DNA of 64,000 nucleotides from an uncultured Pedobacter sp. Its GTDB lineage: Bacteria > Bacteroidota > Bacteroidia > Sphingobacteriales > Sphingobacteriaceae. The position numbers and the translations under genes were made by a program. Position 1 is the first letter of the stretch, and the number at the start of each line of letters is the position of its first letter. The notes under the pieces are model-generated. The model saw only the letters and a program-made list of their open reading frames with translations. It was not told where the DNA came from and made no database searches. Positions 1-16,145 of this stretch are shown one piece after another. The stretch covers positions 14,034 through 78,033 of the forward strand of contig NZ_CAMLHF010000002.1 in the NCBI RefSeq assembly GCF_946479715.1, read 5' to 3'.

Positions 1-1039
1 TGGTGAGAACCGTAGGTTCAAAATAATGCCCGATATGGCCTTTACGTTTACCCCCTTGCAATAAAGTAGCTCCTTTTTCTATAGCATCATCTACCTGATG
101 CTTTAGTACACCAATTTGTTCCTTTCTGGTTAAAGCGCCTATATAGACTCCATCTTCTGTGGGTGGGCCCGACTTCCATGATTTCACTTCTTTTACAAAA
201 GCGGCCACATAATCGTCATATACATTTTCATGCACGTAGATGCGCTCTACTGCACAACAACTTTGTCCGTTGTTGTAAAAGGCCCCATCGGCGGTACCCG
301 CAGCTACTGCAACAATATCTTTTACATCATCTGCTACATACAATGGATCTTTACCGCCAAGTTCCAGCTGACAGGGAACCATCTTTTTTGCTACCCTTTC
401 GTAAATGTGTTTTCCTGTTTTATAAGATCCGGTAAAGAAATAGCCATCGAAATCCATATCTAACAAATGTTCTCCTGTTTCTTTACCCCCAATAGCGATC
501 TGAAAAACATTTTCAGGTACACCAGCCTTTTTAAGTAGGCGCTCAATTTCCATTCCTGTTAAAGAAGCATATTCTGAAGGTTTATACATTACCGCATTTC
601 CGGCAAGTAAGGCCGGCACAAATACATTTACCCCCACCAGATAGGGATAGTTCCAGGCCGATATGTTACAGATTACACCTAACGGATCATAAGAGATCTT
701 CTCTTTCAGCTCATCGGTATCGGTAACCCACTCATCTGAAAGGTATTTCTCTGCATTGCCAATCATCCATTGAATCCTTGTTCTGGCCCCGTTAAGCTCA
801 TTACGCGATTGCTGTAAAGGCTTACCTACCTCGGAAGTAAGTATTGCGGCAAGTTTTTCTTTTTCAAGATCCAGCAAGTCGTAAAACCTATGGAGAACAG
901 CAATACGTCCTTTTAGGGATTGCTTTGCCCAATGTTTTTGAGCAGCTTTAAGCAGGCTGTATTTATTATCTAACGATGCTCTGTCGTTTTCTATTAATAT
1001 CGTAATAATTTCTTCTGTAGCCGGATTTACAACATTCAT
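1..1039 (-). CDS. Aldehyde dehydrogenase, NAD(P)+-dependent (3' end beyond window)
   Basis: Oxidises an aldehyde to the acid. The frame is open from an ATG at 1037-1039 to the left edge, giving the first 346 residues of a family that is usually about 455-500 long. Family landmarks are an NPATEE start, the nucleotide-binding part around ISAWNYPY (126-133), the general-base Glu226 in QLELGGK, and the catalytic Cys261 in NNGQSC. It overlaps the stop of the upstream amidotransferase by 4 bp (ATGA), so the two are translationally coupled. In this operon the expected substrate is a gamma-glutamyl-aminoaldehyde made by the neighbouring alcohol dehydrogenase; that is inferred from context. Family certain, substrate not. 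Confidence 0.93.
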   Translation of the reverse strand, partial: MNVVNPATEEIITILIENDRASLDNKYSLLKAAQKHWAKQSLKGRIAVLHRFYDLLDLEKEKLAAILTSEVGKPLQQSRNELNGARTRIQWMIGNAEKYLSDEWVTDTDELKEKISYDPLGVICNISAWNYPYLVGVNVFVPALLAGNAVMYKPSEYASLTGMEIERLLKKAGVPENVFQIAIGGKETGEHLLDMDFDGYFFTGSYKTGKHIYERVAKKMVPCQLELGGKDPLYVADDVKDIVAVAAGTADGAFYNNGQSCCAVERIYVHENVYDDYVAAFVKEVKSWKSGPPTEDGVYIGALTRKEQIGVLKHQVDDAIEKGATLLQGGKRKGHIGHYFEPTVLT

Positions 1040-1752
1040 CTTTTATGATTTTTTACTGCTTCTATAAACTGTTCTTTAACTTTTTGAGAGAGTGGGTTCG
1101 ATTCCTTCTCTTTCATTCTTTCAGGATGCCATTGTACCCCTAGCATAAAAGCTTTGTCGGTTTTATCTTTAAATTCCAGGGCCTCAATAATACCGTCGTC
1201 AGTATCTGAATAAGCACTAACCATTAAATTATCACCAAGATAATTCGGGTTAATTCCCTGATGGTGGGCACTGTTTACTTCTCCTTTTTCTACGCCGGTT
1301 ACGCTATACAGCAGGCTCTCCTTTTTAACATTTACGCCATGGACTTTGTCTTGAGCACCTTTTTTGTGGATCTGATTTACCTGCTCGCCATTGTCTTCAA
1401 ATACTTTGCCGCCCTCAAGGATATTAACATATTGCATGCCCCGGCAGATTCCCAGAACAGGCACCTTGTGATCTTGTGAATAGGTATAAATCTGTAATTC
1501 AAACTGATCTCTTTCAGGTAAAAATACATCCGGCTTATGCGGATAATCCTGGGCACCACCATACAATTCGGGTACTACATCTATCCCTCCGGTTAAAACA
1601 AAGCCATCACATAACTGAAAATCGTAGATGTTATCCTTTTGAAAAGAAAGCTCTATGAGTTCAATCTCATCTCCCAATTCCTGTGGGGTAAACCAATTCC
1701 AATAGTTCTGAAAATTGGTTTCGGTATAGCTTATTCCAATCTTTTTTTTCAT
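1036..1752 (-). CDS. Class I glutamine amidotransferase-like gamma-glutamyl hydrolase (PuuD-like, peptidase C26)
   Basis: A 238-residue member of the family that includes PuuD, which hydrolyses gamma-glutamyl-GABA to glutamate and GABA. The catalytic triad is visible: Cys103 in GICRG, His209 and Glu211 in QWHPE. The TGGIDVVPELYGG block near residues 54-66 is typical of the C26 subgroup. It starts 10 bp after the alcohol dehydrogenase and overlaps the aldehyde dehydrogenase start by 4 bp. In context it would perform the last step, releasing glutamate from a gamma-glutamyl acid (gamma-glutamylglycine if the substrate is ethanolamine). The hydrolase family is clear; the exact amide is inferred. 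Confidence 0.9.
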   Translation of the reverse strand: MKKKIGISYTETNFQNYWNWFTPQELGDEIELIELSFQKDNIYDFQLCDGFVLTGGIDVVPELYGGAQDYPHKPDVFLPERDQFELQIYTYSQDHKVPVLGICRGMQYVNILEGGKVFEDNGEQVNQIHKKGAQDKVHGVNVKKESLLYSVTGVEKGEVNSAHHQGINPNYLGDNLMVSAYSDTDDGIIEALEFKDKTDKAFMLGVQWHPERMKEKESNPLSQKVKEQFIEAVKNHKR

Positions 1753-1762
1753 TAGAATATCT

Positions 1763-2911
1763 TTAAAGCGCCTTTAAATACAGTTGTTTAAAATCTTCTC
1801 GGCTAACCGGCTTAGGATTATTAGGATGTGCAAAATCGGCAAGGGCGAGATCTGCGAGTGTTTCTATATGTTCTGGTTTTACGCCGATGTCTCTTAAATG
1901 ATGCGGGATATTTACTTTAGTGTTCAGTTCGAAAAGGTATTTTACCACCGCTTCGCCTGTTTCTTCTTTTAATTCAAGCGTCCGGGCTATCCTGCGGAAT
2001 TTATCTTCAAAGCCGGCAATATTAAATTCCATTCCGTAAGGGATATTTACTGCATTGGCCAGGCCATGATGCGTATCAAGTAAGGAAGAAAGTGGATGTG
2101 CAAGTGAATGTACCACACCAAGCCCTTTTTGAAAAGCAATTGCACCCATCATGGAGGCCATCAGCATTTTACTTCTGCTTTCCAGATCAGGCTTATTTGT
2201 TGCTTTTTCCAAAGAATCTTTGATTAGCGAAATACCCTCCAGTGCTATACCATCGCACAGCGGGTGTGGATTTTTTGCCAGGAATGCCTCCATATTATGA
2301 GTAAGTGCATCCATACCTGTTGCTGCCGTTATAAATGGTGGCAAATCCATGGTAAGTTCGGGATCGGCAAATACAATCTGCGCCATTAATTTTGGAGAGA
2401 ACAGGATCTTTTTCTGATGTGTTTCATCATCAGCAATAATGGCACTTCTGCCTACTTCGCTTCCGGTTCCGGAGGTGGTTGGGATGGTGATAAAATGCGG
2501 AACGTCGTTGGTAACGTAAACATCCCCACCAATCAGGTCATCGTACTTAAACAGATCCTCGCGGTGATTTACCCTTAACACAATTGCCCTGGCTACATCC
2601 AATGCTGCACCGCCACCAATACCAATAATGCTATCTCTGGAAGTATTATCCCACACATCGCCCCCTTTGTATACATCGCTTTTTACAGGGTTTTTGTGAA
2701 TGTCGTTAAATACTTCTACTGAAATGTTATGCACTTGTAAATCGGTTACAATGGCTTTAAAAAATGGCAATGAAGCTATGGTTGGATCGGTAACGATCAT
2801 TGGCCGTTTTAGCCCATTCTTTTGCAAATAGGCGGGCAATTCCTTTATAGCCCCTGCTCCGAAACGAATGGTTGTTGGGAAATTATACTGATATACTTTA
2901 TCGAATGTCAT
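1763..2911 (-). CDS. Iron-containing alcohol dehydrogenase (group III)
   Basis: Interconverts an alcohol and an aldehyde with NAD(P)(H). The 382 residues show the dinucleotide-binding run GIGGGAALD (97-105) and the TTSGTGSE motif (145-152). Metal ligands fit the FucO spacing: Asp201, His205, His268 and His282, with intervals of 4, 63 and 14. It lies between the gamma-glutamyl ligase (36 bp upstream) and the PuuD-like hydrolase (10 bp downstream). Its presence where polyamine (Puu) pathways carry the amine oxidase PuuB is the key clue that the glutamylated substrate is an amino alcohol, not a diamine. Family certain; substrate inferred. Confidence 0.94.
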   Translation of the reverse strand: MTFDKVYQYNFPTTIRFGAGAIKELPAYLQKNGLKRPMIVTDPTIASLPFFKAIVTDLQVHNISVEVFNDIHKNPVKSDVYKGGDVWDNTSRDSIIGIGGGAALDVARAIVLRVNHREDLFKYDDLIGGDVYVTNDVPHFITIPTTSGTGSEVGRSAIIADDETHQKKILFSPKLMAQIVFADPELTMDLPPFITAATGMDALTHNMEAFLAKNPHPLCDGIALEGISLIKDSLEKATNKPDLESRSKMLMASMMGAIAFQKGLGVVHSLAHPLSSLLDTHHGLANAVNIPYGMEFNIAGFEDKFRRIARTLELKEETGEAVVKYLFELNTKVNIPHHLRDIGVKPEHIETLADLALADFAHPNNPKPVSREDFKQLYLKAL

Positions 2912-2947
2912 ATGTATGGTTACTATTAATCAAATTAATGCCTGAGG

Positions 2948-4306
2948 TTAAATAATTTCAAAGTAGCGTTTAAGCTCCCAATCTGTTACTACTTTGGCGT
3001 ACTGCTTCCATTCCCACTCTCTTGTTAACGTAAAATGCTCAACAAACTGATCGCCAAACAGCTCTTTTGCTACCGTCGATTGTTTCATTTTTTGGGTAGC
3101 TTCATAAAGGTTGGCCGGCAATACTCCGTTTGAAAGATCCCGGTAACCATTTCCTTCGGTAGCCTCCTTTTCCAGTTTCATTTTGTTTTTAACTCCATAT
3201 AAACCCGCAGCAAGGCAGGCAGCCAAAGCCAGATACGGATTAGTATCAGAACCTACTACCCGTGTTTCCAAACGTGTTGCTTTTGCGTTGCAAGGCAGAG
3301 CCCTTAAGGCAACCGTTCTGTTGTCGATACCCCAGGTTAAGGTAGTTGGCGCCCAGGCCCCTTCAACCAATCGTTTATAACTATTAATGGTCGGAGCAAT
3401 CATGGGCAATATTTGCGGCAAACAGTGCAATTGCCCTGCTATATAGCTTTTCATCAGTTCACTCATTTTATGCGGATCCTTTTCGTCGTAAAACAGGTTA
3501 TCTTTCGAATCCTTATCCCACAAACTCTGATGTACATGTCCGCTGCAACCAGGCAGAGTTTCAGTAATCTTTGCCATAAAGGTAGCCATAACACCGTGCT
3601 TATAGGCAATCTCCTTAACCGCAGTTTTAAACAATACCGCCTGATCTGCTGCCTGCAAAACAGGCGCATATTTAATGGCTGCTTCATAAACCCCTGGTCC
3701 GGTTTCTGTATGCAGGCCCTCTATAGGTATTCCGAATTTGCAAAGCAGATCAAAAAGATCAGTCATGTATTCGTTTTTCAGGGTACTGCGTAAAATGGAG
3801 TACCCAAACATTCCCGGTGTTAAGGGTGTAAGGTTTTGATAGCCTTTTTGGTGTGCCGTTTCTGGTGTTTCTGCAAAATTGAACCATTCGAATTCTTGTG
3901 AAAAATAGGGCGAAAATCCACTTTGTTCAGTATCTGCCAACACCTTACGCAGTAACTGCCGCGGACAAGTATATCCTGGTTTTTCATCATCATCAACGAA
4001 GTCGCCAAGGAAAAAAGGAATATCATTTTCCCAGGGTATTTTACGGAACGTACTTAGGTCAAGCTTTACCAGCGCATCGGGATAGCCGGTATGCCAGCCT
4101 GTAAATTTCACATTATCGTAAGCTACATCACCCATATCCCACCCAAAAGTGACATCACAAAACCCTAATCTTCCTTCTGCTAAAGAAGTGAACTTTTCGG
4201 CAGAGATATACTTGCCTCTTAAAACGCCATCAATATCGGCAACGGCGAGTTTTACTTTTCCTGATGGATGCTGCTTTACATATGCTAATATTTCTTGTGT
4301 TGTCAT
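2948..4306 (-). CDS. Glutamine synthetase family protein, probable gamma-glutamyl-amine ligase
   Basis: ATP-dependent ligation of glutamate to an amine; the family includes GlnA, PuuA and the GlnA3/GlnA4-type gamma-glutamylamide synthetases. The 452-residue protein has the two-domain layout: N-terminal beta-grasp with VKLAVADIDGVLRGK (18-32), and a catalytic domain with TETGPGVYE, SGHVHQSLWD, NRTVALR and RLETRVVGSDTNPYL. It lacks an adenylylation-type C terminus and sits in a catabolic operon, so nitrogen assimilation as ordinary GlnA is unlikely. The start overlaps the permease stop by 4 bp. With an ethanolamine-type permease upstream and an alcohol dehydrogenase downstream, gamma-glutamylethanolamide synthetase is the best guess. 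Confidence 0.9.
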   Translation of the reverse strand: MTTQEILAYVKQHPSGKVKLAVADIDGVLRGKYISAEKFTSLAEGRLGFCDVTFGWDMGDVAYDNVKFTGWHTGYPDALVKLDLSTFRKIPWENDIPFFLGDFVDDDEKPGYTCPRQLLRKVLADTEQSGFSPYFSQEFEWFNFAETPETAHQKGYQNLTPLTPGMFGYSILRSTLKNEYMTDLFDLLCKFGIPIEGLHTETGPGVYEAAIKYAPVLQAADQAVLFKTAVKEIAYKHGVMATFMAKITETLPGCSGHVHQSLWDKDSKDNLFYDEKDPHKMSELMKSYIAGQLHCLPQILPMIAPTINSYKRLVEGAWAPTTLTWGIDNRTVALRALPCNAKATRLETRVVGSDTNPYLALAACLAAGLYGVKNKMKLEKEATEGNGYRDLSNGVLPANLYEATQKMKQSTVAKELFGDQFVEHFTLTREWEWKQYAKVVTDWELKRYFEII

Positions 4307-5619
4307 GCATGAGATGGTTTAAAGATTCTGTACAGCAAAAAGGTTACTATCAATATGGAGAAATAAATAAGTCCGAGTTTAAAATTGAAAATGAACATTG
4401 CAATAATGGACACTGTTGCAATGATTAGTGATATGACCGGAAATGCCGGATAAAAGGGAGCCCGAAAAGGTCTTGCCAGATCAGGTTCCCGCTTCCTCAG
4501 GATAACAATGGAAATCATGGAAATGATATATAGCGTAAGTGCTCCAAAAACAGAGACAATGATGATCTCTGATGTTTTACCGGAAAGCAATGCCAGAATA
4601 CCGATTACCATATTTCCTATCAGCGCATTTGCCGGGGTATGGAAACGTGGCGATATTTTGCCCAGGAATGATGGGATGTTATGTACTCTGCCCATTTCGT
4701 AGGTTGATCTTCCGGCAGCGAGTATGAGCCCATGAAAAGAAGCTACCAGTCCGAATAAACCAACAGTAATTAGCAGATGATACATAAGATGATTACTGCC
4801 TGTTATTTTTGCAAGGGCCAAAGGAAGCGGAGAATCTGATGTTTCTCCGCTTATTCCATTTTTATAAACAATTGCTTCCCATCCGGCGATGCCGGTAGCT
4901 GCAATAAATATTAATACGCACAGTATTGCCAGCGTAAAGATGGCCCATCCAAATCCTTTACTAATATCTTTTTGTGGATTCTTGGTCTCTTCGGCCACAT
5001 TTGCGATGCCCTCGATACCCAAAAAGAACCAGATGGCAAAGGGAATGGCGGCAAAAACACCTCCCCATCCATTGGGCATTGCGTTATGGGTAAGGTTTGC
5101 TACCTCGAACTTTGGCAAAGCGATACCTGAAAACAAGAGCAACTCTCCAACTGCAAGTACAGTAATGATGACCTCAAAAGAGGCCGCAGCTTTTACACCA
5201 TATACATTGAGTCCGGTAAACACAAAGTAAATGGCTATGGCACTGGTTAGTATGGGCACTTGCGGGAAAAATGCATTGAAATACGCACCAATTGCAAATG
5301 CAATGGCTGGCGGAGCAAGTATAAACTCTACGATCTGGGCAATACCGGCTATAAAGCCAATATTTTTACCCATCGCTTTGTTTGCATAATCAAATACACC
5401 TCCTGCCTTGGGTATGGCACATGCAAGTTCTGCATAACTGAATGTAAAAGTTACATACATCACCATGATCACTATAGTGGCTATAGCCATCCCCCCTGTA
5501 CCGCCTTTTTCGAGGCCCAGGTTCCATCCAAAATACATACCCGAAATGACATACCCTACTCCAAGCCCCCAGAGCATAAACGGGGTGAGTGTTTTTTTTA
5601 AACCTTTGTTTTCTGTCAT
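4303..5619 (-). CDS. APC-family permease, ethanolamine permease type
   Basis: A 438-residue inner-membrane carrier with about 12 hydrophobic segments. The N-terminal half matches what I recall of the ethanolamine permease group: WGLGVGYVISGMYFGWN, AIPKAGGVFDYA and a strongly conserved FILAPPAIAFAIGAYFN. Other APC carriers in this window lack the last block. It begins 41 bp after the SusD gene with no terminator between, and its stop overlaps the ligase start. The role would be to move ethanolamine, or a similar amino alcohol, from periplasm to cytoplasm for glutamylation. The substrate rests on recognised motifs plus operon context and needs a phylogeny. Confidence 0.88.
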   Translation of the reverse strand: MTENKGLKKTLTPFMLWGLGVGYVISGMYFGWNLGLEKGGTGGMAIATIVIMVMYVTFTFSYAELACAIPKAGGVFDYANKAMGKNIGFIAGIAQIVEFILAPPAIAFAIGAYFNAFFPQVPILTSAIAIYFVFTGLNVYGVKAAASFEVIITVLAVGELLLFSGIALPKFEVANLTHNAMPNGWGGVFAAIPFAIWFFLGIEGIANVAEETKNPQKDISKGFGWAIFTLAILCVLIFIAATGIAGWEAIVYKNGISGETSDSPLPLALAKITGSNHLMYHLLITVGLFGLVASFHGLILAAGRSTYEMGRVHNIPSFLGKISPRFHTPANALIGNMVIGILALLSGKTSEIIIVSVFGALTLYIISMISIVILRKREPDLARPFRAPFYPAFPVISLIIATVSIIAMFIFNFKLGLIYFSILIVTFLLYRIFKPSHA

Positions 5620-5660
5620 TTGATGATTTCGGTTACATGATTATAAATATAAGATAATTA

Positions 5661-7217
5661 CTACTTTAACAACCACATTTGCTGATTTGTATTGTCATTT
5701 CCTTCGTATTGAGATTTAACAGCTGCATCAAGATTATCTGAATTATAACTCAACTCATTTGATGGATAAAGCCAGCGCAAAGGGAAGTTTGTGGATGGTG
5801 TGTTTAAATTTGTTGTACTGTTTAAAGTAAATACAGGATATCCGGTTCTCCGGTTTTCGAACCATGATTGATATTTGCCTCCCTGTAAGAAATTAGCCAG
5901 GTATTTTTGCGTAATGATCTGCTTGATCTGCTCTTCACCTGAGCCTGCAAGCACAACCCCAGGAGTTGCAGGAAATGCGAGTATATACGCTGCATCCATT
6001 TTCATATTGTGGTGATAATCGGTCAGATCAGGCGTATTTATAGCGATGGCATTCATAGAATTGGTAATACCTGCAGCATAGTAAACTTGTGCCGGTGTTC
6101 CGGTAATCCAACCGCGTACAGTTGCCTCTGCAAGGGCAAATTGCATGTCCCAGCAACTGAATACACTAACCGGTTCCGCGTTTACTAACTGCACATATCT
6201 GTTGTTAAGGTCTGCGTAATCTTTGCCGACTCTTCGTGTTTGCAAGGCCGAAAAGGCATCAGAAGGTTCTACAGCAGGATAAGCGCTAAAATCAGATTGT
6301 GATACTCCTGCTGATATTTTAACAGGCGATGGCTTAGCATAGTAAAAAAGTCTTCTGTCATTGGTTGCTTTTAAAGGTGCAAGCAAAGTGTTCGTCAGCA
6401 TGGTATAGTTTGATTTCACAAATGAGTTACCTGAACCTGCCGGCACATCGGACCATGGATAATTCTGACCTGCGGTATTGTTATAAGCGAGCGCAAAATT
6501 ATCTTGATAGTCGCGCATCAACGGACGGTTTGCGACAATATCTTTGAAACGCTCAATAACCTTCAGATCCGCATCGGCTGTTTTTTTATAAAGGTTAATG
6601 AGCACATGAAGTTCAAAACTATTGCTAAGTCTCCTCCATTTGTCTACATTCCCGGCGTAAATCGGATCACCTTCAAAGTTCGTACCTTCAGCAAATAATT
6701 GGTTTGCCTGATCCAGCTCATTTAGAATTCCTTGAAAAACTGCTTTTTGAGTATCATATTTAGGCTGTAGTACATTCTCCTCCCCTTTTACAGCTTCTGA
6801 ATAAGGAATATCTCCCACTTGCATCGTGGTCATAAAAAATTGCCATGCACGGATAAAGTGCCCTAATCCCTGATAAGATTTTTTAAGCCCATCGCTTGTG
6901 GCATAGTTCTCCATAGGCGGAATATTTCGCAGTAAAGTAATACGATTGAAGTCAGTACGTCCCAGCCTATTGTATTGAAATCCTTCTTGCCCCTCACCCC
7001 AGGTGAGGTATTTACCTAATAAAAAGGGTTGCATAAACCCCTTAGTAGAGCTGATGTCGCTACGGGTAACACTTAAAATCATGCCTGTTGCCAGCATAGC
7101 TGAATTTACCTGAGTTGTTTCATTTGGATTTGTGTTGATCTCCTCAAACTTTTTACAACCGTTCGTTAGAATTGCCAGTACCGGCAAAATCAACATATAT
7201 TTTATAATTCTTTTCAT
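5661..7217 (-). CDS. SusD/RagB-family outer-membrane lipoprotein (SusD-like_2 type)
   Basis: Substrate-capturing partner of the SusC channel at the cell surface. The 518-residue protein starts with a lipoprotein signal ending in LTNGC, so Cys21 would be lipidated. The NTNPNETTQVNSAML segment just after it is typical of SusD-like_2 proteins. It follows susC by 38 bp and precedes the permease by 41 bp. Most SusD proteins bind glycans or peptides, but no glycosidase or polysaccharide lyase is nearby, and everything downstream handles a small amine. It may therefore bind an amine-containing ligand, which is inference. Confidence 0.92.
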   Translation of the reverse strand: MKRIIKYMLILPVLAILTNGCKKFEEINTNPNETTQVNSAMLATGMILSVTRSDISSTKGFMQPFLLGKYLTWGEGQEGFQYNRLGRTDFNRITLLRNIPPMENYATSDGLKKSYQGLGHFIRAWQFFMTTMQVGDIPYSEAVKGEENVLQPKYDTQKAVFQGILNELDQANQLFAEGTNFEGDPIYAGNVDKWRRLSNSFELHVLINLYKKTADADLKVIERFKDIVANRPLMRDYQDNFALAYNNTAGQNYPWSDVPAGSGNSFVKSNYTMLTNTLLAPLKATNDRRLFYYAKPSPVKISAGVSQSDFSAYPAVEPSDAFSALQTRRVGKDYADLNNRYVQLVNAEPVSVFSCWDMQFALAEATVRGWITGTPAQVYYAAGITNSMNAIAINTPDLTDYHHNMKMDAAYILAFPATPGVVLAGSGEEQIKQIITQKYLANFLQGGKYQSWFENRRTGYPVFTLNSTTNLNTPSTNFPLRWLYPSNELSYNSDNLDAAVKSQYEGNDNTNQQMWLLK

Positions 7218-7255
7218 CTTGATTTAAGTTATTTATAAACGTAAAAGCTGCCTTA

Positions 7256-10200
7256 CTAAAACCCTACTTTAAGATTGAATCCTACCATTCGTGATGAAGG
7301 AGAATTCAGATTTTCATCATCCACATCGGGATCTGAAAATTTAAAGTCAGTTAGCAGCAGTAAATTCTGACCTGTAATTGAAAATGATGCACTTCTGGCA
7401 CCTATTCTATTAGCAAGCTTTGCAGGAAAATTATAACCTAGTGAAACTTCACGAAGCTTAATGAAAGTTTCTTTTTGAATACCCATATCACCCCCTCTAA
7501 AAGATTGTGCAAAGTCCTGATAGCCTACCTGTACATCATTCGCTGCATATTTTCTTGTATCGCTGGTAATGTTGCCATATTTGTCAAATTGTACCTCTCC
7601 CGATACCACTTTAACCCCTTTACCAACATAATTATTTAAGCCATTTACCACCTGATCATAGCGGTATTGGTTGTCGGAATCAGGGTTAGTACCGGTATCC
7701 CACATTTTATCGTACAGGTAGTTGTACATTAGCCCGCCAATACGTCCGTCTACATTTACCCCCAGATTCCAGTTTTTGTACCTGAAATTGTTAATAAAAC
7801 CAATGCTAAAATCTGGGTCTCCGTAACCGTATTTTTTATTATAATCACTTTCCACAGGAAATCCGTTGTTAAAGATTACATTGCCGCTTGGGTCTCTCAA
7901 CCAGTATGAGCTCAGGTAAGTATCCAGTCTTTGGCCCTTTTTTACCCATGGATTATCGGCAGATAAAACAGGGTCAAGATTAACATAATAGCGGTGCTGG
8001 TTAGACCAGTTAACGGTAGTTTTCCACTCAAAATCTTCATTTTTTACTACAGAACCGTCAACAGTAATTTCAAGACCTCTTCTGGCATAGGTTTCTGCAG
8101 TGTTTACCAATATGGTAGCAAAGCCGGATGATCCTGGAATATCAGTATCTACCTGCCTGTTGTAATAGTACTTATCATAGTAAGCCACATCGAAATGTAA
8201 TCGTTTGCCCAGCAAGTAGCCTGCTGCACCAATTTCCCAGGTGCGCTGTGTGCTTGGAAGTAAATGCTCTCCGATCAGCTTTGATGGATAACTGGCAGAA
8301 TTAAGTGTATTCCATGCTGAGGTAGTAGTGAAGAAAGTTTTATTAATTGCAAAAGGATCAAAAGCATTTTTAAAGAGCGTCCATGATCCACGTAGTTTAA
8401 ACATATCAACAACAGCAGGCATTTTTACCAGCTCTGATACAACCACACTTGAACCTAAAGATGGATAAAAGAAAGACCTTGATGATTCTGGCTGAGATGA
8501 ATTCCAGTCATTTCTGCCCGTAGCATCAAAGAACACTGCATCGTTCCAGCTTACAGACGCCCGACCATAAAGACTATTGATTTGCTGAGACCAGTTTCTT
8601 CCCGGGGTAATTGTTACCGGCTCAACTGAACCTTTCAAAGAAAAATACCTGGGCGAAATTAATCCGTTTTTAGTGGTAGCGGTAAAGCCATCATCTTTAT
8701 AATAATAAAGCGTACCACCGGCCAATCCTTCAAATGCCCATTTGCTTACCTTTTTATTAAAAGTAAGGATCAAATCGTTATTGGTAGAGAAACCTCTTGA
8801 ATCACTTGTTTCATACATCCCTCTTGCATTCCATCCGCCACGTGTAGAGAATATATTAGCCGTAGGATTTTGTTTGGTATTTGTGTTATTATAGTTATCA
8901 TAACCTGAACGCAGCATCAGGTTGAAATCATTATTGAACTTATAATTGGCCGTAACATTACCGTTTACTTTATTTTTGGTCTCACCGTTCAATTTTTCGT
9001 AAGCGATTAAGTAAGGGTTGTCATACCAGTTGGTATACATCCAGTTCTGGGTTTTGTTTGGAACTACCCAGTAGTCTTTGTAATCACGGATATCATATTC
9101 TGTACCTGTCCACATGATAAGCTGATATAAATACCCCTGGTTACCATAACCACTACCCCACATTTGAGGGGTAGAACCACGACTGATACCCAAACGTCCT
9201 TCTACCTTAAAATGATCATTAACTATTATTTCACCACCCGAAGTAAGGTTCAGTAGGTTCAGTTTCTGATTTGGGAACTGACCCTTCTGGAAAATATGGT
9301 TCACCCCAATCCTGAAACTTCCATTTTCGTTGGTTTGTGCCAAAGAAATGTTATTACTGGCTATAATACCAGTATTCATAAAATTCTTTAGGTTATCTTT
9401 TCCTACTGATACTAAAGGGCGTCCATCTTCAAATTGCTTGGTTTCCGGATTCCAATCTCTTGCGGTGTTTCCAACATCCAGTTTTGGGCCCCAGACATAA
9501 TCGTTATCAATCTGACCATTTTGACCACGGCCATACGAGCTTTGTACCTCAGGAATTGCCAGATAACCCAGTTGAAACATGGTATTGCTGTTTACATCTA
9601 CAGAGAACCCCTTACCGGCAGCTCCTTTTTTAGTAGTGATCATCAAAACACCACCTAAAGCCCGCGAACCATATAAGGCAGAAGCAGTAGATCCCTTTAA
9701 CACATCCATACTCTCAATGTCATCCGTAGGCACATCACGTAAAGTCATGTTTGCATAAGGAACACCGTCAATAATTAGCAAGGCGGGCTCACCTCTTAAC
9801 TCTATGGTAGGTCTTGAATTAAATTCTGTAGAGTTTTTAATTACCAAGCCTGATACACGACCGGTTAAGGAAGTACCCAGATCAACACCTTTAACTGTTT
9901 GCAGGTCTTTCCCAGCAACTCTTTGCACTGCATACCCTAATGCTTTTTCCTGCCTTTTAACACCAAGAGCCGTTACAACAACCTCAGAAAGACCTTGTAA
10001 TTCGGCTTCGAGAACAATATTTAGACTGGTAACACCCGCTCTTACCACCACCTCTTTTGTTAGATATCCAAGATATTTTACGACCAATACATCTCCATCC
10101 TTTGCGTCGATTGAAAATTCACCGGAAACATTTGCTGAAGTACCTTTGGAAGTGCCCTTAATCATAACAGTGGCTCCTGATAACGGATTACCCTCTGCAT

Positions 10201-10630
10201 CTGAAATTTTCCCCTTGATGTTTATCTGCGATACAGTATTAGCAATAGGCAATTGGGTTGCTGAATTGGGATTTTTCTTGATTACAATCGTTTTGTTTAT
10301 GATTTTATATGAAAACGGTCTGTTTTTAAATATCTGGTCAAGAGCTGTTTCCACACTAACATTCTTTAACTCAATACTGATTCTGCCTTCCTGCTTTATG
10401 AGTTTATTGTTATAAAAGAAGGTATAGCCACTTTGCTCTTTTATGCTTTCGAACAGATTATTTAGTGTAATGTTCTTTTCGGAAAGTGTAATGCTTTGCG
10501 AAAATCCCGTTGCGGAGACTTGAAGGCAACCTATGAAGATTAATATTACAATTAGTTTCATTGCCAATAAATTCCTGGATGAGAATAACCACCTGAAAAC
10601 AGGTGCTTTCCTACATTGATTTAAATTCAT
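7256..10630 (-). CDS. SusC/RagA-family TonB-dependent receptor with N-terminal STN domain
   Basis: Outer-membrane TonB-dependent channel, 1124 residues. Domains in order: signal sequence (hydrophobic 26-45), STN/secretin-N-like signalling domain (about 47-119), carboxypeptidase-regulatory-like beta domain (about 136-200, GKISDAEGNPLSGATV), plug (about 230-350), then a 22-strand-type barrel ending in a hydrophobic-aromatic C terminus (MVGFNLKVGF). STN domains are found in receptors that signal to FecR-type anti-sigma factors, and such a gene lies 186 bp upstream. The SusD partner is directly downstream. Likely expressed from the leader at 10631-10816 under the adjacent sigma factor. Confidence 0.95.
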   Translation of the reverse strand: MNLNQCRKAPVFRWLFSSRNLLAMKLIVILIFIGCLQVSATGFSQSITLSEKNITLNNLFESIKEQSGYTFFYNNKLIKQEGRISIELKNVSVETALDQIFKNRPFSYKIINKTIVIKKNPNSATQLPIANTVSQINIKGKISDAEGNPLSGATVMIKGTSKGTSANVSGEFSIDAKDGDVLVVKYLGYLTKEVVVRAGVTSLNIVLEAELQGLSEVVVTALGVKRQEKALGYAVQRVAGKDLQTVKGVDLGTSLTGRVSGLVIKNSTEFNSRPTIELRGEPALLIIDGVPYANMTLRDVPTDDIESMDVLKGSTASALYGSRALGGVLMITTKKGAAGKGFSVDVNSNTMFQLGYLAIPEVQSSYGRGQNGQIDNDYVWGPKLDVGNTARDWNPETKQFEDGRPLVSVGKDNLKNFMNTGIIASNNISLAQTNENGSFRIGVNHIFQKGQFPNQKLNLLNLTSGGEIIVNDHFKVEGRLGISRGSTPQMWGSGYGNQGYLYQLIMWTGTEYDIRDYKDYWVVPNKTQNWMYTNWYDNPYLIAYEKLNGETKNKVNGNVTANYKFNNDFNLMLRSGYDNYNNTNTKQNPTANIFSTRGGWNARGMYETSDSRGFSTNNDLILTFNKKVSKWAFEGLAGGTLYYYKDDGFTATTKNGLISPRYFSLKGSVEPVTITPGRNWSQQINSLYGRASVSWNDAVFFDATGRNDWNSSQPESSRSFFYPSLGSSVVVSELVKMPAVVDMFKLRGSWTLFKNAFDPFAINKTFFTTTSAWNTLNSASYPSKLIGEHLLPSTQRTWEIGAAGYLLGKRLHFDVAYYDKYYYNRQVDTDIPGSSGFATILVNTAETYARRGLEITVDGSVVKNEDFEWKTTVNWSNQHRYYVNLDPVLSADNPWVKKGQRLDTYLSSYWLRDPSGNVIFNNGFPVESDYNKKYGYGDPDFSIGFINNFRYKNWNLGVNVDGRIGGLMYNYLYDKMWDTGTNPDSDNQYRYDQVVNGLNNYVGKGVKVVSGEVQFDKYGNITSDTRKYAANDVQVGYQDFAQSFRGGDMGIQKETFIKLREVSLGYNFPAKLANRIGARSASFSITGQNLLLLTDFKFSDPDVDDENLNSPSSRMVGFNLKVGF

Positions 10631-10816: not shown

Positions 10817-11953
10817 TTATTTAGTTACAATTAGTTTCTTTCCTTCAATTTTAAAATGCACCCCGCCAAATTCCAGTATCTTAAGCACTTCTGATAATTT
10901 TACGTTGCGCGGGATATCGCCCATAAACTCATCATCAGTATGGTTTATCTCATATAATACATCTACATCATACCATCGCGATAGCTGGCGCAACACAGAT
11001 TGCAGGTCGTCACCTTCGAAATGAAAATACCCCTTTTGCCATGCCATTACCTGATCAATATTGGCCTTACTGATTTTCAGATTCATATCCTGATGTTCAA
11101 CATTGGCCTGCTCTCCAGGTCTCAGGAAACGTGAAACTGTTTTATCCCTCCCATTAAGTAGTGATACTTTTACTGAACCCTCAAGCAAGGTTGTTTTGAT
11201 GCTTGTTTCATCATCATAAGAATTAATATTAAAATGGGTTCCGAAAACTTCAACTTCCTGTTTATCTGTTATTACAATAAAAGGAAGCTTTTTATTCTTA
11301 AATACTTCGAAATATGCCTCACCGGTTAGTTCTACCTTCCGATAGGTCGCGTTAGCAAAACTTGTTGGAAATTTTATGGAAGAAGCAGCATTTAGCCAAA
11401 CTCTTGTACCATCAGGCAAATTCACTTGATATTGACCGCCCCTGGGTGTACTGATGGTATTATATGCCATCTCTTTTTTCCTGGATTCTGTAACAGTATA
11501 TACCAATTGCCCACTGACATTTTTTGTTATTGCTACTCCCGCTTGTTTAGCAATCTGACCGTTACCTGCATCTGTTAGCGAAATTTCAGTACCGTCAGCT
11601 AAAGTAAGTATAGCCTTGTTTCCACCGGGTTCTGCGTCTTGTTTTGCATAGGCAGCGCGCGGATTAGCATTATTAAGATCGTGATTAAAATAAGAATATA
11701 AGCCTATAGATAATGTAACCAATACAACAACTGCAGCAGTTAGTTTAAGCCACAATGGCTTTATTTTAATTTGTTTGTGGTGGTCCTCTTCGTCAGCCTC
11801 AGAAATTCCACCTTCCTCATTCATCGCTCCCAAAAGATGTTCATCCAGTTTCCCATCTTTGGTTAGCTGTACAAATAATTCCAACTCCTCATCAGAGAGT
11901 TGTTTATTAATATATCGACTAACAAGTATTCTGTAAAATTCTTTATCTTCCAT
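10817..11953 (-). CDS. FecR-family anti-sigma factor (inner membrane)
   Basis: Transmembrane regulator, 378 residues: cytoplasmic N-terminal region (1-65), one membrane helix (about 70-89), a periplasmic FecR core (about 165-265, including STPRGGQYQVNLPDGT and VWLNAASSIKFP), and a C-terminal DUF4974-type domain (about 305-377). It would hold the sigma factor inactive until the STN domain of the loaded SusC receptor signals across the periplasm. It lies 72 bp downstream of the sigma gene and 186 bp upstream of susC, the standard order for such systems. Confidence 0.94.
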   Translation of the reverse strand: MEDKEFYRILVSRYINKQLSDEELELFVQLTKDGKLDEHLLGAMNEEGGISEADEEDHHKQIKIKPLWLKLTAAVVVLVTLSIGLYSYFNHDLNNANPRAAYAKQDAEPGGNKAILTLADGTEISLTDAGNGQIAKQAGVAITKNVSGQLVYTVTESRKKEMAYNTISTPRGGQYQVNLPDGTRVWLNAASSIKFPTSFANATYRKVELTGEAYFEVFKNKKLPFIVITDKQEVEVFGTHFNINSYDDETSIKTTLLEGSVKVSLLNGRDKTVSRFLRPGEQANVEHQDMNLKISKANIDQVMAWQKGYFHFEGDDLQSVLRQLSRWYDVDVLYEINHTDDEFMGDIPRNVKLSEVLKILEFGGVHFKIEGKKLIVTK

Positions 11954-12025
11954 AGTGAGGGCCTTTCAAATACTAAGACAATATTTGAAGCGCCGAGGGT
12001 AGCTGGAAAAATTATTTTTTTGAAT

Positions 12026-12619
12026 TTATTTTAACAGGATAACCAAAAGTACTCCTAAAGAGATACCCAGGTCCTTTTCAACAGAAGTTCTAAGAATTTT
12101 CATAGAAGCAACCATGTGGTTCTTTACTGCATTTCTGGAAATGCCCAATGCTGTAGCTACTTCTTCATAACTCTTACCCTGCTCTCTGCATAGTTTAAAA
12201 ATCTCTCTGCTTCGCGGCGACAGGACTTCCAAAGCTTTCTGAAGGTAATCGTAATACTCTTTACTTAAAAGTTCGTCTTCAGTACAGTTCCTTTCTTCAA
12301 CAAAGCTGTTCACGATCTCAGACATGGCCACTTCAGAACGAAAGGCTTTTTTGAGACTATTTAAGGTATGATTTCGGGCAACAATATATAAATAGGCTTT
12401 TAGCGATTGAACATCAGTTAACTTTGATCTGCATTGCCAGATCTTTATAAATATTTCTTGTGTAAGGTCTTCTGAAAGATCAGCAGAGTGAACAAACTTT
12501 TTAACAAAACCTAAAATTCCGGCACTGTACCTCTCATAGAATTCCGCAAAGGCATACTCATCCCCAAAGACTAATTTGGCCCTTAGTTCTTGATCAGAAA
12601 GTATAGAATATGTGGTCAT
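12026..12619 (-). CDS. ECF-type RNA polymerase sigma factor (FecI-like)
   Basis: A 197-residue sigma-70 family protein. Region 2 is around residues 25-95 (EDLTQEIFIKIWQ at about 50-62), and region 4, with a helix-turn-helix, is near 135-180 (LSPRSREIFKLCREQGKSY, then GISRNAVKNHM). The C terminus ends in a hydrophobic tail (SLGVLLVILLK) that is common in Bacteroidota FecI-like proteins. It is first of a minus-strand series with FecR, SusC and SusD, so it probably drives the uptake and amino-alcohol operon when released from FecR. Confidence 0.94.
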   Translation of the reverse strand: MTTYSILSDQELRAKLVFGDEYAFAEFYERYSAGILGFVKKFVHSADLSEDLTQEIFIKIWQCRSKLTDVQSLKAYLYIVARNHTLNSLKKAFRSEVAMSEIVNSFVEERNCTEDELLSKEYYDYLQKALEVLSPRSREIFKLCREQGKSYEEVATALGISRNAVKNHMVASMKILRTSVEKDLGISLGVLLVILLK

Positions 12620-12996: not shown

Positions 12997-13611
12997 ATGT
13001 CAATAAAAGATAGAAAAGAGAGAGATAAGCTGGATAGAAGAAAGTTGATTATTGAATCGGCTACCAAACTCTTTTTGGAACAGGGTTATGAAAAAACTTC
13101 TATCCGCAACATTGCCGACGATATTGAATACAGCCCTGCAACGATCTATCTTTATTTCAAAGAGAAAGATGAGATCTTCTACGTAATCCACGAACAGGGA
13201 TTCGATCTGTTAAACAAAGAATTTATAAACCATAACCAGATAACTGATCCATTTGAAAGGCTGGCTGAGCTAGGAAAAATATACCTGAATTTTGCGCTTG
13301 CAAATCCAGATTACTATGACCTTATGTTTATCATGAGGGCCCCTTTGAGTGAAATTAAATGCCATAGCAAGTGGGAAGCCGGAGATAATAGCTTTCAATA
13401 CCTGCTTAATACGGTTACAGAATGCCTGGATAAAAAACTTATTGTTGATGGTGATCCCCTTATTGTTTCAATGTCTATATGGTCCTATGTTCATGGCCTT
13501 ATTTCCTTATTTATAAGAGAGCGGCTGCAGTCGGTAAGTATTGAAGGTGAACAAAACCCTAATCTTTTAGCCCAATCATTAGACTATTTTCTAAAAACAC
13601 TTAAAGTGTAA
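12997..13611 (+). CDS. TetR/AcrR-family transcriptional repressor of the RND efflux operon
   Basis: A 204-residue regulator. The N-terminal helix-turn-helix is at about residues 30-60 (TSIRNIADDIEYSPATIYLYF), followed by a helical ligand-binding domain with no recognisable substrate signature. It is the first gene of a plus-strand set, followed after 128 bp by TolC-, HlyD- and RND-type genes. Three matching palindromes flank it, one inside its own promoter and two before the efflux genes, so it probably represses both itself and the pump until an inducer binds. Start chosen at the ATG 19 bp after the -7 element. Confidence 0.93.
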   Translation: MSIKDRKERDKLDRRKLIIESATKLFLEQGYEKTSIRNIADDIEYSPATIYLYFKEKDEIFYVIHEQGFDLLNKEFINHNQITDPFERLAELGKIYLNFALANPDYYDLMFIMRAPLSEIKCHSKWEAGDNSFQYLLNTVTECLDKKLIVDGDPLIVSMSIWSYVHGLISLFIRERLQSVSIEGEQNPNLLAQSLDYFLKTLKV

Positions 13612-13628
13612 AAAAATTTACACTACAA

Positions 13629-13641
13629 TAAACAGTGTTCA
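13629..13641. promoter_or_regulatory. TetR operator copy 2 (efflux promoter)
   Basis: TAAACAGTGTTCA, same palindrome as at 12956 but in opposite orientation. It lies 20 bp upstream of TATTTTTC (13661-13668), a 7/8 match to the -7 consensus, so it would cover the -33 region of the efflux promoter. Confidence 0.7.
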
Positions 13642-13705
13642 GTAAATAACCAACGATTATTATTTTTCAAAAACAATGTAACAAATCAAAAAATGCCAAT
13701 TCTAA

Positions 13706-13718
13706 TAAACAGTGTTCA
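13706..13718. promoter_or_regulatory. TetR operator copy 3 (efflux leader)
   Basis: TAAACAGTGTTCA, identical to copy 2 and 77 bp downstream of it, 22 bp before the TolC-like start codon. It may act as a roadblock after the transcription start or cooperate with copy 2 by looping. Confidence 0.7.
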
Positions 13719-13739
13719 TTTTATAAACAACGATACGCC

Positions 13740-15089
13740 ATGAATAGAAAAACAGCCTTAAAATCGTTATTATTAATCCTGGGGTGCTGGCTTCCCTTTG
13801 GTGCCTTCTCTCAAAGTCCTCTTCAGGGTTATTTAGACGAGGCGCTCAAAAACAATCTTGGGATACAAAAACAAGATTTCGCTTTACAGCGAAGCCTCTA
13901 TGCTTTAAAAGAAGCAAAAGGACTATTCCTTCCCGATGTGGAACTGAACACCTCCTACCTGACATCAGGAGGTGGACGCAAAATTGAAATCCCAATTGGT
14001 GACCTCCTGAATCCTGTATACAGCACCTTAAACAGCTTAACGGGTTCTGGTAAATTCCCTCAGGTAGATAATGTGAGTCAGACTTTTAATCCTAACAATT
14101 ATTACGATGCCAAAGTACATACCACCTTGCCTCTGTATAATGCGGAAATTATTTATAATAGCCGTATCAAAAAAGAACAGATCACTATGCAGCAGATAGA
14201 ATTAAGGCTGTATAAACGCGAGCTGATAAAACAAGTTAAGCTTGCTTATTATGGATACGAACAATCGCTGCAGGCCATAAAAATTTTTGAAAACGGGATT
14301 GCATTGGCAAAAGAAAACCTGCGGATAAATCAATCAATGGTTAAAAATGGAAAAGCAATAAGAACAGTGGTGGCCCGTTCAGAAAATGAACTTACAGGTA
14401 TTGAAACTCAACTCGAAAACGCCAAAACTGAGTCTCTGAATGCTGCAGCCTATTTCAATTTTCTACTCAATAAGCCGCTCAACAGTACCATTGAAATTAG
14501 TGAAAACGAGAATACGATTATTGGACCAGACTCCTCTTCTCATTCCGGGAAAAGAGAAGAACTTGCTTCGCTCGAATCTTTAAATCAAATAAATGCCCTC
14601 TCTGTAAAATTAACCCGTGCTGCTGTACTTCCAAAGCTATCCACATTTGTTGATGTAGGTGCTCAGGGTGATTTTTTAAAAGTAAACAAAGATGCACCCT
14701 ATTATCTTTTCGGAGTAACACTATCATGGCAAATATTTAATGGCAACAGAAATAAAAACAAAACTCAGCAGGCACTTTTAGATTTAAAGTTGACCGAAAC
14801 ACAAACAGAACTGGCATCGCAGCAACTGGAACTTGAGGTTATTACAGCTCAAAATAAATTGAATGCAGCTTTACAGGCTTTTAAAGCTTCGGTTAGCCAA
14901 TCATCATTATCTCTTCAATACTATAAAGACGAACAACGTCTATACAAAGAGGGGCAGGCGCTTTATCTGGAGTTATTGGATGCACAGACAAGATTGATAA
15001 ATGATCAGCTAAAACAAAGTATTGCCTATCTGAATATGCTAACCAGAACAACCGAATTGGAAAGAGCAAAAGCAAGTTATATTCTTTAA
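13740..15089 (+). CDS. TolC-family outer-membrane efflux protein
   Basis: Outer-membrane channel of a tripartite pump, 449 residues. A signal peptide ends near residue 25 (FGAFSQ), followed by two repeats of long helices (e.g. 145-235 and 340-445) characteristic of the TolC fold. It leads an operon with the fusion lipoprotein (21 bp downstream) and the RND permease. Two operator palindromes precede it. Confidence 0.92.
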   Translation: MNRKTALKSLLLILGCWLPFGAFSQSPLQGYLDEALKNNLGIQKQDFALQRSLYALKEAKGLFLPDVELNTSYLTSGGGRKIEIPIGDLLNPVYSTLNSLTGSGKFPQVDNVSQTFNPNNYYDAKVHTTLPLYNAEIIYNSRIKKEQITMQQIELRLYKRELIKQVKLAYYGYEQSLQAIKIFENGIALAKENLRINQSMVKNGKAIRTVVARSENELTGIETQLENAKTESLNAAAYFNFLLNKPLNSTIEISENENTIIGPDSSSHSGKREELASLESLNQINALSVKLTRAAVLPKLSTFVDVGAQGDFLKVNKDAPYYLFGVTLSWQIFNGNRNKNKTQQALLDLKLTETQTELASQQLELEVITAQNKLNAALQAFKASVSQSSLSLQYYKDEQRLYKEGQALYLELLDAQTRLINDQLKQSIAYLNMLTRTTELERAKASYIL

Positions 15090-15110
15090 TCACCTTTAAT
15101 TTAAAACAAA

Positions 15111-16145
15111 ATGAAACATATAAATATAGTCCCAGTCTTCATATTTCTTGGCATTGCCGTAATTGGTTGCAGTGAACCGAAACCGGTACAAAAAACCGAT
15201 AATTCAATTCCGGTAAAGGTAATTTCCTCAGATGCCCTTAATGAAAATGAACCGGTTGAAACTTCTGGTTTACTATCATCAGAGCAACAGAGTAACCTAT
15301 CTTTTAAAACCGGCGGAATCATAAACCGCATTTTTGTTAAGGAAGGTGATCATGTAAACAATGGGCAAGTACTTGCCTCGCTAAACATGACAGAAGTAAA
15401 TGCTCAGCTTAACCAGGCGGAAGAGGGATTTAATAAAGCAAAGCGGGATGCCCAAAGGACTGCCAATTTGTTTAAGGACAGCGTAAGTACCAGAGAGCAA
15501 TTGGAAAATACGCAAACTGCTTTGACAATTGCCAAAAAAAGTCTGGACATAGCGCGGTTCAATGCTGCTCAATCAACCATAAGGGCAAATACAACTGGCG
15601 TTGTTCTTAAAAAACTGGCAAATGAAGGAGAACAGGTAGCCGGAGGAACCCCCATACTTTACATAGGCGGTGTTGCAAATAAAGACTGGATAGTTAAATG
15701 TGGTATTACCGATAAAGACAGATCAAGGATTAGCGGGAGTGAGAAAGTTGAGTTAAACTTTGATGTCTTCCCTCAAACATTAACAGGAGTAGTGAAGTCT
15801 CTTGCCCAAGGCAGTGATGCAGGCTCCGGTTTATACCAGGCCGAAATAAGGCTCAATCCTACCGATGCCAAATTGATCTCAGGGCTCTTTGCCAAAGTAA
15901 AAATATATCCTTTTGGCAAAACAGATCTGTTGTCGGTTCCGGTAGATGCTTTAGTGGAGGGCAAAAATGACAGCGCCTACGTATTTACTTCAGTGAACAA
16001 CAGAGCTATAAAAAAGGCGGTAAAGGTGGCTTACCTAAAAGATGACAAAGCATTTATCTCTGCCGGCTTATTAGCCACTGATCAGATAATAAGAGAAGGG
16101 TCAGCATATCTTACTAATGGTTCCCCAATTAAAATAATCAGATAA
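15111..16145 (+). CDS. RND efflux membrane fusion protein (HlyD/AcrA family lipoprotein)
   Basis: Periplasmic adaptor between the RND pump and the TolC-like channel, 344 residues. A lipoprotein signal ends at AVIGC, so Cys20 is probably lipidated and the protein anchored in a membrane. A barrel-sandwich (lipoyl-like) motif appears as IFVKEGDHVNNGQVLASL (about 66-83), a helical hairpin spans roughly 95-145, and a second lipoyl half is near 155-180. Beta-barrel and membrane-proximal domains follow. 16 bp before the RND gene. Confidence 0.93.
   Translation: MKHINIVPVFIFLGIAVIGCSEPKPVQKTDNSIPVKVISSDALNENEPVETSGLLSSEQQSNLSFKTGGIINRIFVKEGDHVNNGQVLASLNMTEVNAQLNQAEEGFNKAKRDAQRTANLFKDSVSTREQLENTQTALTIAKKSLDIARFNAAQSTIRANTTGVVLKKLANEGEQVAGGTPILYIGGVANKDWIVKCGITDKDRSRISGSEKVELNFDVFPQTLTGVVKSLAQGSDAGSGLYQAEIRLNPTDAKLISGLFAKVKIYPFGKTDLLSVPVDALVEGKNDSAYVFTSVNNRAIKKAVKVAYLKDDKAFISAGLLATDQIIREGSAYLTNGSPIKIIR

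Follow-up and report, generated by a model that had tools for sequence, protein, structure and literature searches.

A SusCD-coupled ethanolamine operon in an uncultured Pedobacter sp. as a probable locus for the use of phospholipid head groups

A 64,000-nucleotide stretch of DNA from an uncultured Pedobacter sp., a soil bacterium (contig NZ_CAMLHF010000002.1, positions 14,034 to 78,033; hereafter the window) begins with an operon in which a SusC/SusD pair of the outer membrane is joined to an Eat-type permease and a cassette of genes proposed to turn ethanolamine into glycine and glutamate. We consider this operon to be probably a locus for the utilisation of phospholipid head groups, the head group being ethanolamine. 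Relatives of its SusCD pair have phospholipid-cutting enzymes as neighbours, an arrangement that suggests head groups of membrane lipids as the nutrient of the operon. The cytoplasmic ethanolamine route itself is well supported but not new; descriptions of it, with the step of the alcohol dehydrogenase, exist for Phaeobacter and Chromohalobacter. The coupling to SusCD, which a first-pass annotation of the window had put forward as new, is real and indeed looks new: among the open-access papers found, none describes an ethanolamine-linked SusCD in its title or at the beginning of its abstract. As judged from sequence, the locus would be known chemistry in a new genetic setting, with a predicted ligand for SusCD.

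The seven genes of the first-pass annotation, their common direction, spacing and overlaps were confirmed by a check of the open reading frames: all are open, lie on the minus strand and form one operon, with gaps of 38, 41, 36 and 10 bp and two overlaps of 4 bp. Its family assignments hold as well, since each of the seven matches the respective Pfam or NCBIfam profiles. However, a gene pair for an extracytoplasmic function (ECF) sigma factor and FecR at 10817-12619, on the same strand, had been overlooked. The genes, given in the order of transcription, are:
12026..12619, minus strand: ECF sigma factor, FecI-like, Bacteroidetes type (TIGR02985, 140.8 bits against a cut-off of 126.4; PF04542/PF08281)
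10817..11953, minus strand: FecR-like anti-sigma factor (PF04773 and PF16344, both over the cut-off)
7256..10630, minus strand: SusC/RagA TonB-dependent transporter with N-terminal STN domain (TIGR04056, 480.2 bits against 368.25; PF07660 (STN), PF13715, PF07715)
5661..7217, minus strand: SusD-like surface lipoprotein (PF12771, 209.9 bits)
4303..5619, minus strand: Eat-type ethanolamine permease (TIGR00908, 438.0 bits against a cut-off of 381.75)
2948..4306, minus strand: glutamine synthetase (GS)-like gamma-glutamyl-amine ligase, proposed gamma-glutamylethanolamide synthetase (PF00120)
1763..2911, minus strand: Fe-type alcohol dehydrogenase (Fe-ADH), proposed gamma-glutamylethanolamide dehydrogenase (PF00465/PF25137)
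1036..1752, minus strand: PuuD-like C26 hydrolase, proposed gamma-glutamylglycine hydrolase (PF07722, 143.3 bits)
2..1039, minus strand: aldehyde dehydrogenase (ALDH), proposed for the gamma-glutamyl aldehyde (PF00171, 308.3 bits); 346 aa, 3' end beyond the window edge

SusC and SusD stand in tandem and, by TIGR04056 and PF12771, are a SusC/SusD pair. FecI, FecR and a SusC with STN domain are the usual outer-membrane signalling set, which FecR and the ECF sigma factor complete here. In the nearest compared genome (G001) the ALDH gene is complete (the remainder is L003 14835-15395) and closes the run; it is followed by a histidine-kinase/response-regulator-like pair, named by reading of the translations. 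The same gene order with short gaps is found in 14 congeneric genomes and, therefore, the arrangement is not due to chance. Sigma-70-like promoter sites occur in the window at chance level (35 found, 35.7 expected), as does the Bacteroidetes-type promoter pattern (5 matches, 5.43 expected), of which none lies ahead of an operon gene. Terminator-like sites are also near chance (14 versus 11.3 expected), with none on the minus strand inside the gap between SusD and permease.

We propose that SusC and SusD import, across the outer membrane, a lipid fragment that bears ethanolamine, be it phosphoethanolamine, glycerophosphoethanolamine or a related lipid. The STN domain would relay the binding signal to FecR and the sigma factor, thereby switching on the operon. 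A secreted phospholipase C (PLC) and a phosphatase, encoded outside the window operon but within the locus in some relatives, would free ethanolamine. Import into the cytoplasm would be by the Eat-type permease, a step well supported by the family of the protein. The GS-like ligase would then make gamma-glutamylethanolamide at the expense of ATP, Fe-ADH and ALDH would oxidize it to gamma-glutamylglycine, and the C26 hydrolase would release glycine and glutamate. This putative enzymatic route has the backing of the protein families, the ligase tree, the active-site residues and a published parallel. The path suggested by the first-pass annotation, which leads from ethanolamine to glutamate plus glycine via gamma-glutamylethanolamide, its aldehyde and gamma-glutamylglycine, remains the one that best accounts for the enzyme and permease genes.

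The case for a lipid ligand starts from the partners of related SusD proteins. Within the genus, SusDs at least 73% identical to that of the window have the ethanolamine cassette as partner in 14 places, a NAPE-PLD-like gene in seven, PLC in one and none of these in five (counts cover 27 of the 40 places); in the five (L259-L263) no such partner stands by SusD, and L263 is cut by a contig end. A congeneric locus (L258:4061-13555) has the run FecI-FecR-SusC-SusD-PLC, with a SusD 81% identical, a gap of 61 bp and a PLC over the model cut-off. A hydrolase of 364-384 aa is next after SusD in L204-L208, L221, L264 and L265; the other hydrolases are 70-76% identical to that of L208, and the SusDs of these loci are 42% identical to the window SusD in L221 and 73-82% in the rest. 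The best solved relative of the hydrolases of L208 and L204, the two that were scanned, is NAPE-PLD (4qn9; E=2.8e-40 and 1.3e-38). The seven NAPE-PLD-like loci of one Pedobacter setting share synteny farther downstream and may go back to one event. In a set of 20 SusD contexts, relatives 42-47% identical to the window SusD are directly upstream of PLC in L214, L215, L217, L219 and L220; L210 has a weak sulfatase/metalloenzyme-like gene and L222 a gene of the endonuclease/exonuclease/phosphatase family beside SusD, and no partner was seen in L209, L211-L213, L216, L218 and L223. Secretion of the PLCs is predicted from a TAT-signal match in L220 and from the starts of others, which look alike by eye. 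In ten genomes, chosen after the contexts were known, PLC was within 300 bp directly downstream of 5 of the 12 window-type SusDs, but of only 2 of the 131 other PF12771 SusDs (p=3.3e-5; 145 rows, two split genes merged).

The ethanolamine cassettes themselves were surveyed in 201 genomes of the family, of which 77 had a ligase match at E 1e-60 or better. Sixteen of the 77, with ligases 58-64% identical, were left out of the context set; most examined loci of that range are paralogs. The 61 neighbourhoods examined (that of G001 and 60 others) were classed as ethanolamine cassette (33) or as paralog in other surroundings (28). All five cassette genes are present in 31 of the 33; in the remaining two, a contig end truncates the locus. 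An acid phosphatase of the e(P4) family is encoded between SusD and permease in L054 and L060, and in L060 a PLC follows ALDH. A PLC was found no farther than about 9.3 kb from the ligase (a shorter range at contig ends) in 5 of 33 cassettes (L051, L052, L056, L058 and L060) versus none of 28 paralog loci; the calls in L051, L058 and L060 are over the model cut-off, those in L052 and L056 by BLAST alone. The e(P4) phosphatase was found in 2 of 33 versus 0 of 28. In G197, a PLC with a different SusCD/FecR/FecI set is divergent from an ethanolamine cassette (L086; G197:C74:132388-134859); this PLC is just beyond L086 and excluded from the five. Three PLCs are encoded elsewhere in G001; one lies downstream of another SusCD (L102).

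SusCD with FecI/FecR is directly upstream of the cassette, on the same strand, in five of the 33 family loci (L004, L035, L054, L058 and L060). Of 145 genomes of the genus, 64 have the permease and 40 the SusD, and the two are adjacent in 14 (G001, G171, G811, G829, G831, G847, G857, G860, G868, G877, G891, G903, G908 and G909). All 14 contexts were examined (L004, L035, L246-L257); the gap between SusD and permease is 41-63 bp. In the SusD tree, which excludes L246-L265, linked forms are at two places: L054, L058 and L060 from two other genera, and window, L004 and L035, which are nested among Pedobacter pairs linked to the NAPE-PLD-like gene. The two parts also occur together when apart. The permease is present in 36 of 40 congeneric genomes with SusD versus 28 of 105 without (p=2.4e-12) and, when the 14 linked genomes are removed, in 22 of 26 versus 28 of 105 (p=8.1e-8). 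In the family, the cassette is present in 9 of 15 genomes with a SusD at least 50% identical versus 24 of 186 (p=7.6e-5), the sixteen genomes lacking a context reading being counted as without cassette. All p-values are from raw Fisher tests. The sigma factor is 68-95% identical to that of the window in the cassette-linked L004, L035 and L246-L257, but only 25-31% in L204-L208 and L258-L265, while SusC and SusD remain 65-98% identical. By these identities, the regulator seems to change with the cargo.

That the cassette serves ethanolamine is indicated by the permease. It exceeds the cut-off of the ethanolamine permease model, as does its ortholog in L060 (436.8 bits). In a sample of the phylum, 18 of 395 genomes have the permease at E 1e-100 or better, and 17 neighbourhoods (all except that of G001) were examined. 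A ligase of the window type adjoins the permease in seven (L104-L107, L109-L111). In L108 and L112, from another family, a permease 62-63% identical is accompanied by a different GS, a short-chain dehydrogenase (SDR), an ALDH and a class-I amidotransferase, that is, by the glnA4 layout of Streptomyces inside Bacteroidota. Permeases only 43-48% identical have EutB close downstream in six of seven loci (L114-L118 and L120; L119 is outside the clear cases), and EutC was confirmed in all three of the EutB-linked loci scanned (L114, L115, L118). No genes of the cassette or glnA4 type were seen beside the permease in L113. Three different ethanolamine routes thus accompany permeases of this family, in support of ethanolamine as the substrate in the window, and the EutB/EutC neighbours of the distant permeases strengthen the permease step.

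The ligase scores below the cut-off of each of four NCBIfam GS/PuuA models matched. It reaches 242.5 bits against 429.15 for GlnA and 201.8 bits against 650 for gamma-glutamylputrescine synthetase and is, hence, not of the PuuA type by this model. A tree of 84 ligases was calculated from 46 cassette rows, 14 of 33 from other contexts, 8 from L226-L233, 2 linked to SDR, 11 from Proteobacteria/Rhodothermota, E. coli GlnA, E. coli PuuA and the window; the sequence of Streptomyces GlnA4 is not among them. The 11 come from a set of 80 loci, 13 of which were compared with the window. The window ligase falls within a Bacteroidota clade of 69 rows (support 100/98) that does not include E. coli GlnA or PuuA, both on very long branches and of unsure placement. 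A second clade (100/98), outside of which the window ligase stands, contains the ligases of Chromohalobacter, Halomonas and roseobacters and the SDR-linked ones of L108 and L112. Twelve active-site positions are kept (E129, E131, E212, E220, G265, H269, R321, R339, R344, R355, E357, R359); relative to GS, Pro replaces N264, Phe replaces Y179 and Trp replaces E327, and the stretch with D50 and S53 aligns poorly. The roles of these GS residues, including E327 as the ammonium site, are taken to be as commonly assigned. Trp at E327 is shared by the 12 other Bacteroidota rows inspected and speaks against a true GlnA. As far as tree and residues go, the reading of the first-pass annotation has withstood its own refuting condition on the grouping of the ligase, and the residues fit a predicted amine substrate bigger than ammonia, without indicating which amine. 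An AlphaFold2 model of the ligase, calculated on a shallow alignment of 14 rows, had a mean pLDDT of 59.5. To take the ligase alone as proof of ethanolamine is ruled out, as ligases up to 76% identical are found in other contexts.

Some of these contexts may be mentioned in their own right. The eight ligases of L226-L233, from one genus, are flanked by a protein of about 401 aa and a transporter-like protein of about 444 aa; L229 and L230 have a weak Fe-ADH match (24-26%) farther from the ligase. In Sphingobacteriaceae, a paralogous GS-like ligase 56-65% identical (L064-L066, L068-L085, L088-L094) is often accompanied by a GlnII-like second GS (336 aa), a protein of about 345 aa and a HAD hydrolase (about 289 aa). 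The 345-aa protein had no Pfam match in L066, the one locus scanned. The neighbourhood of this paralog would encode an amine pathway.

The dehydrogenases have counterparts in the Chromohalobacter locus L121, whose ligase is 100% identical to PDB 5dm3. There, Fe-ADH and ALDH follow the ligase; the window proteins are homologous to them, with identities of 36% (Fe-ADH), 34% (ALDH) and 35% (ligase). The hydrolase of L121 is PF05013, that of the window PF07722. In Phaeobacter, according to PMC10132767, the route comprises an ethanolamine gamma-glutamylase, a gamma-glutamylethanolamide dehydrogenase, an aldehyde dehydrogenase and a gamma-glutamylglycine amidohydrolase, and the genes are described as close relatives of those demonstrated to serve ethanolamine use in C. 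salexigens and Agrobacterium. The idea of a new route, in which an alcohol dehydrogenase takes over from the oxidase, is ruled out by this description and by the Fe-ADH of L121.

The Phaeobacter sp. MED193/Chromohalobacter operon thus resembles that of the window in GS-like ligase, alcohol dehydrogenase, aldehyde dehydrogenase and hydrolase, and the operon of MED193 has been tied to the use of phosphorylethanolamine as well (PMC10132767). However, uptake there is by TRAP (EtoVWX), whereas the window has an Eat-type permease of the APC type and, different from L121, a C26 hydrolase; in addition, its ligase is from a separate clade, and SusCD and FecI/FecR are added. The glnA4 cluster of Streptomyces, which has been linked to C. 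salexigens, shares the gamma-glutamylethanolamide route, a permease, an aldehyde dehydrogenase and an amidotransferase-type hydrolase, but has a short-chain dehydrogenase instead of Fe-ADH and no outer-membrane system (PMC6529630, PMC9397018); the likeness is one of cluster descriptions. PUS loci of Flavobacterium contain SusCD pairs (PusCD) beside phosphodiesterases or phosphatases, and PusCD has been proposed for organic phosphorus, including lipid head groups (PMC8115612). They are induced by phosphate depletion, whereas the window has FecI/FecR and a catabolic cassette for nitrogen and carbon, and the word "ethanolamine" is absent from the main text of that paper. A phosphatase or phosphodiesterase is not part of the window operon but is present in some relatives. 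The Puu pathway of E. coli is similar in the logic of gamma-glutamylation, the C26 hydrolase and ALDH, but the ligase does not group with PuuA, a PuuB-type oxidase is missing from the operon, and no frame in the window has E. coli PuuB for its best match at E 1e-8. A profile scan of the operon, the part of the genome searched, found neither EutBC nor shell proteins.

Several observations weigh against a head-group locus. The profile scan revealed no phospholipase or phosphatase in the window operon, and 28 of 33 cassettes have no PLC nearby. PLC is common (44 in 25 of 25 genomes, 1-3 each), and the model that detects it is named phosphocholine-specific. PLCs of this type may also act on phosphatidylethanolamine. 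The ten test genomes were picked with their contexts already known, and four of the five PLC-linked SusDs are from one genus. SusCD is not adjacent in 28 of 33 family cassettes and at 50 of 64 congeneric permease loci, and related genomes are not independent, so the p-values are overstated by shared ancestry. Finally, the eight ligases of L226-L233, from another family and 73-76% identical, have no cassette genes beside them, cassette and non-cassette ligases are intermixed in one clade, and further members adjoin a GlnII-like gene. With ligases of the same clade in such different contexts, the sequence of the ligase does not reveal its substrate.

These points leave room for other explanations. 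SusCD could itself take up free ethanolamine, as the first-pass annotation implies, or another small amino alcohol, rather than phospholipid fragments. In the window, SusD is directly followed by the permease with no phosphatase between, and the gap is short (41-63 bp) in all 14 linked congeneric loci. But TonB-powered import of an amine of 61 Da would be unusual, an e(P4) phosphatase does intervene in L054 and L060, and orthologous pairs with SusDs 73-82% identical adjoin PLC or the NAPE-PLD-like gene instead. Since the orthologs also sit with phospholipid-cutting enzymes, uptake of free ethanolamine is probably not the role of SusCD, and we regard this explanation as unlikely. A similarly low likelihood is given to the cassette handling another amine or amino alcohol (e.g. 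alaninol, propanolamine or serinol) by the same gamma-glutamyl chemistry. The several contexts of the ligase clade would allow it, and the ADH, which shares only 36% identity with its Chromohalobacter counterpart, has its best score, below the cut-off, with a 4-hydroxybutyrate dehydrogenase model. However, the permease is over the cut-off of the ethanolamine model and has distant relatives beside EutB/EutC, and the PLC, NAPE-PLD-like and phosphatase neighbours in relatives also point to ethanolamine. That SusCD and the cassette are unrelated neighbours under one promoter is in line with the many cassettes of genus and family that have no adjacent SusCD; it is made very improbable by the presence of linked forms in three genera and in two parts of the SusD tree, by the short, conserved gaps and by co-occurrence even where unlinked (22 of 26 versus 28 of 105).

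Returning to the lipid head group as the probable food of this operon, it is tempting to speculate that one SusCD subfamily of Bacteroidota is dedicated to phospholipid fragments bearing ethanolamine and that its operons swap their cargo: a secreted PLC, a NAPE-PLD-like hydrolase or the whole pathway from ethanolamine to glycine. This generalization is tentative, and we hold it with less confidence than the reading of the operon itself. SusCD pairs have mostly been studied as importers of glycans; such operons, if true, would be to lipids what polysaccharide utilisation loci are to polysaccharides, and with them soil Bacteroidota could draw carbon, nitrogen and phosphorus from dead membranes. 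The route from ethanolamine to glycine and glutamate, known but little studied, would then be a compartment-free path downstream of head-group import. SusCD orthologs with swapped neighbours give a direct and testable prediction of the ligand.

Named ligases that share 94-97% identity with that of the window belong to P. panaciterrae, P. ginsengisoli, P. nyackensis and Pedobacter sp. B4-66, in agreement with a Pedobacter as host. Beyond the sigma factor gene, at 12997-16145, the window has a TetR-like regulator gene in divergent orientation and, after it, TolC-like and HlyD-like genes, as named by reading of the translations.

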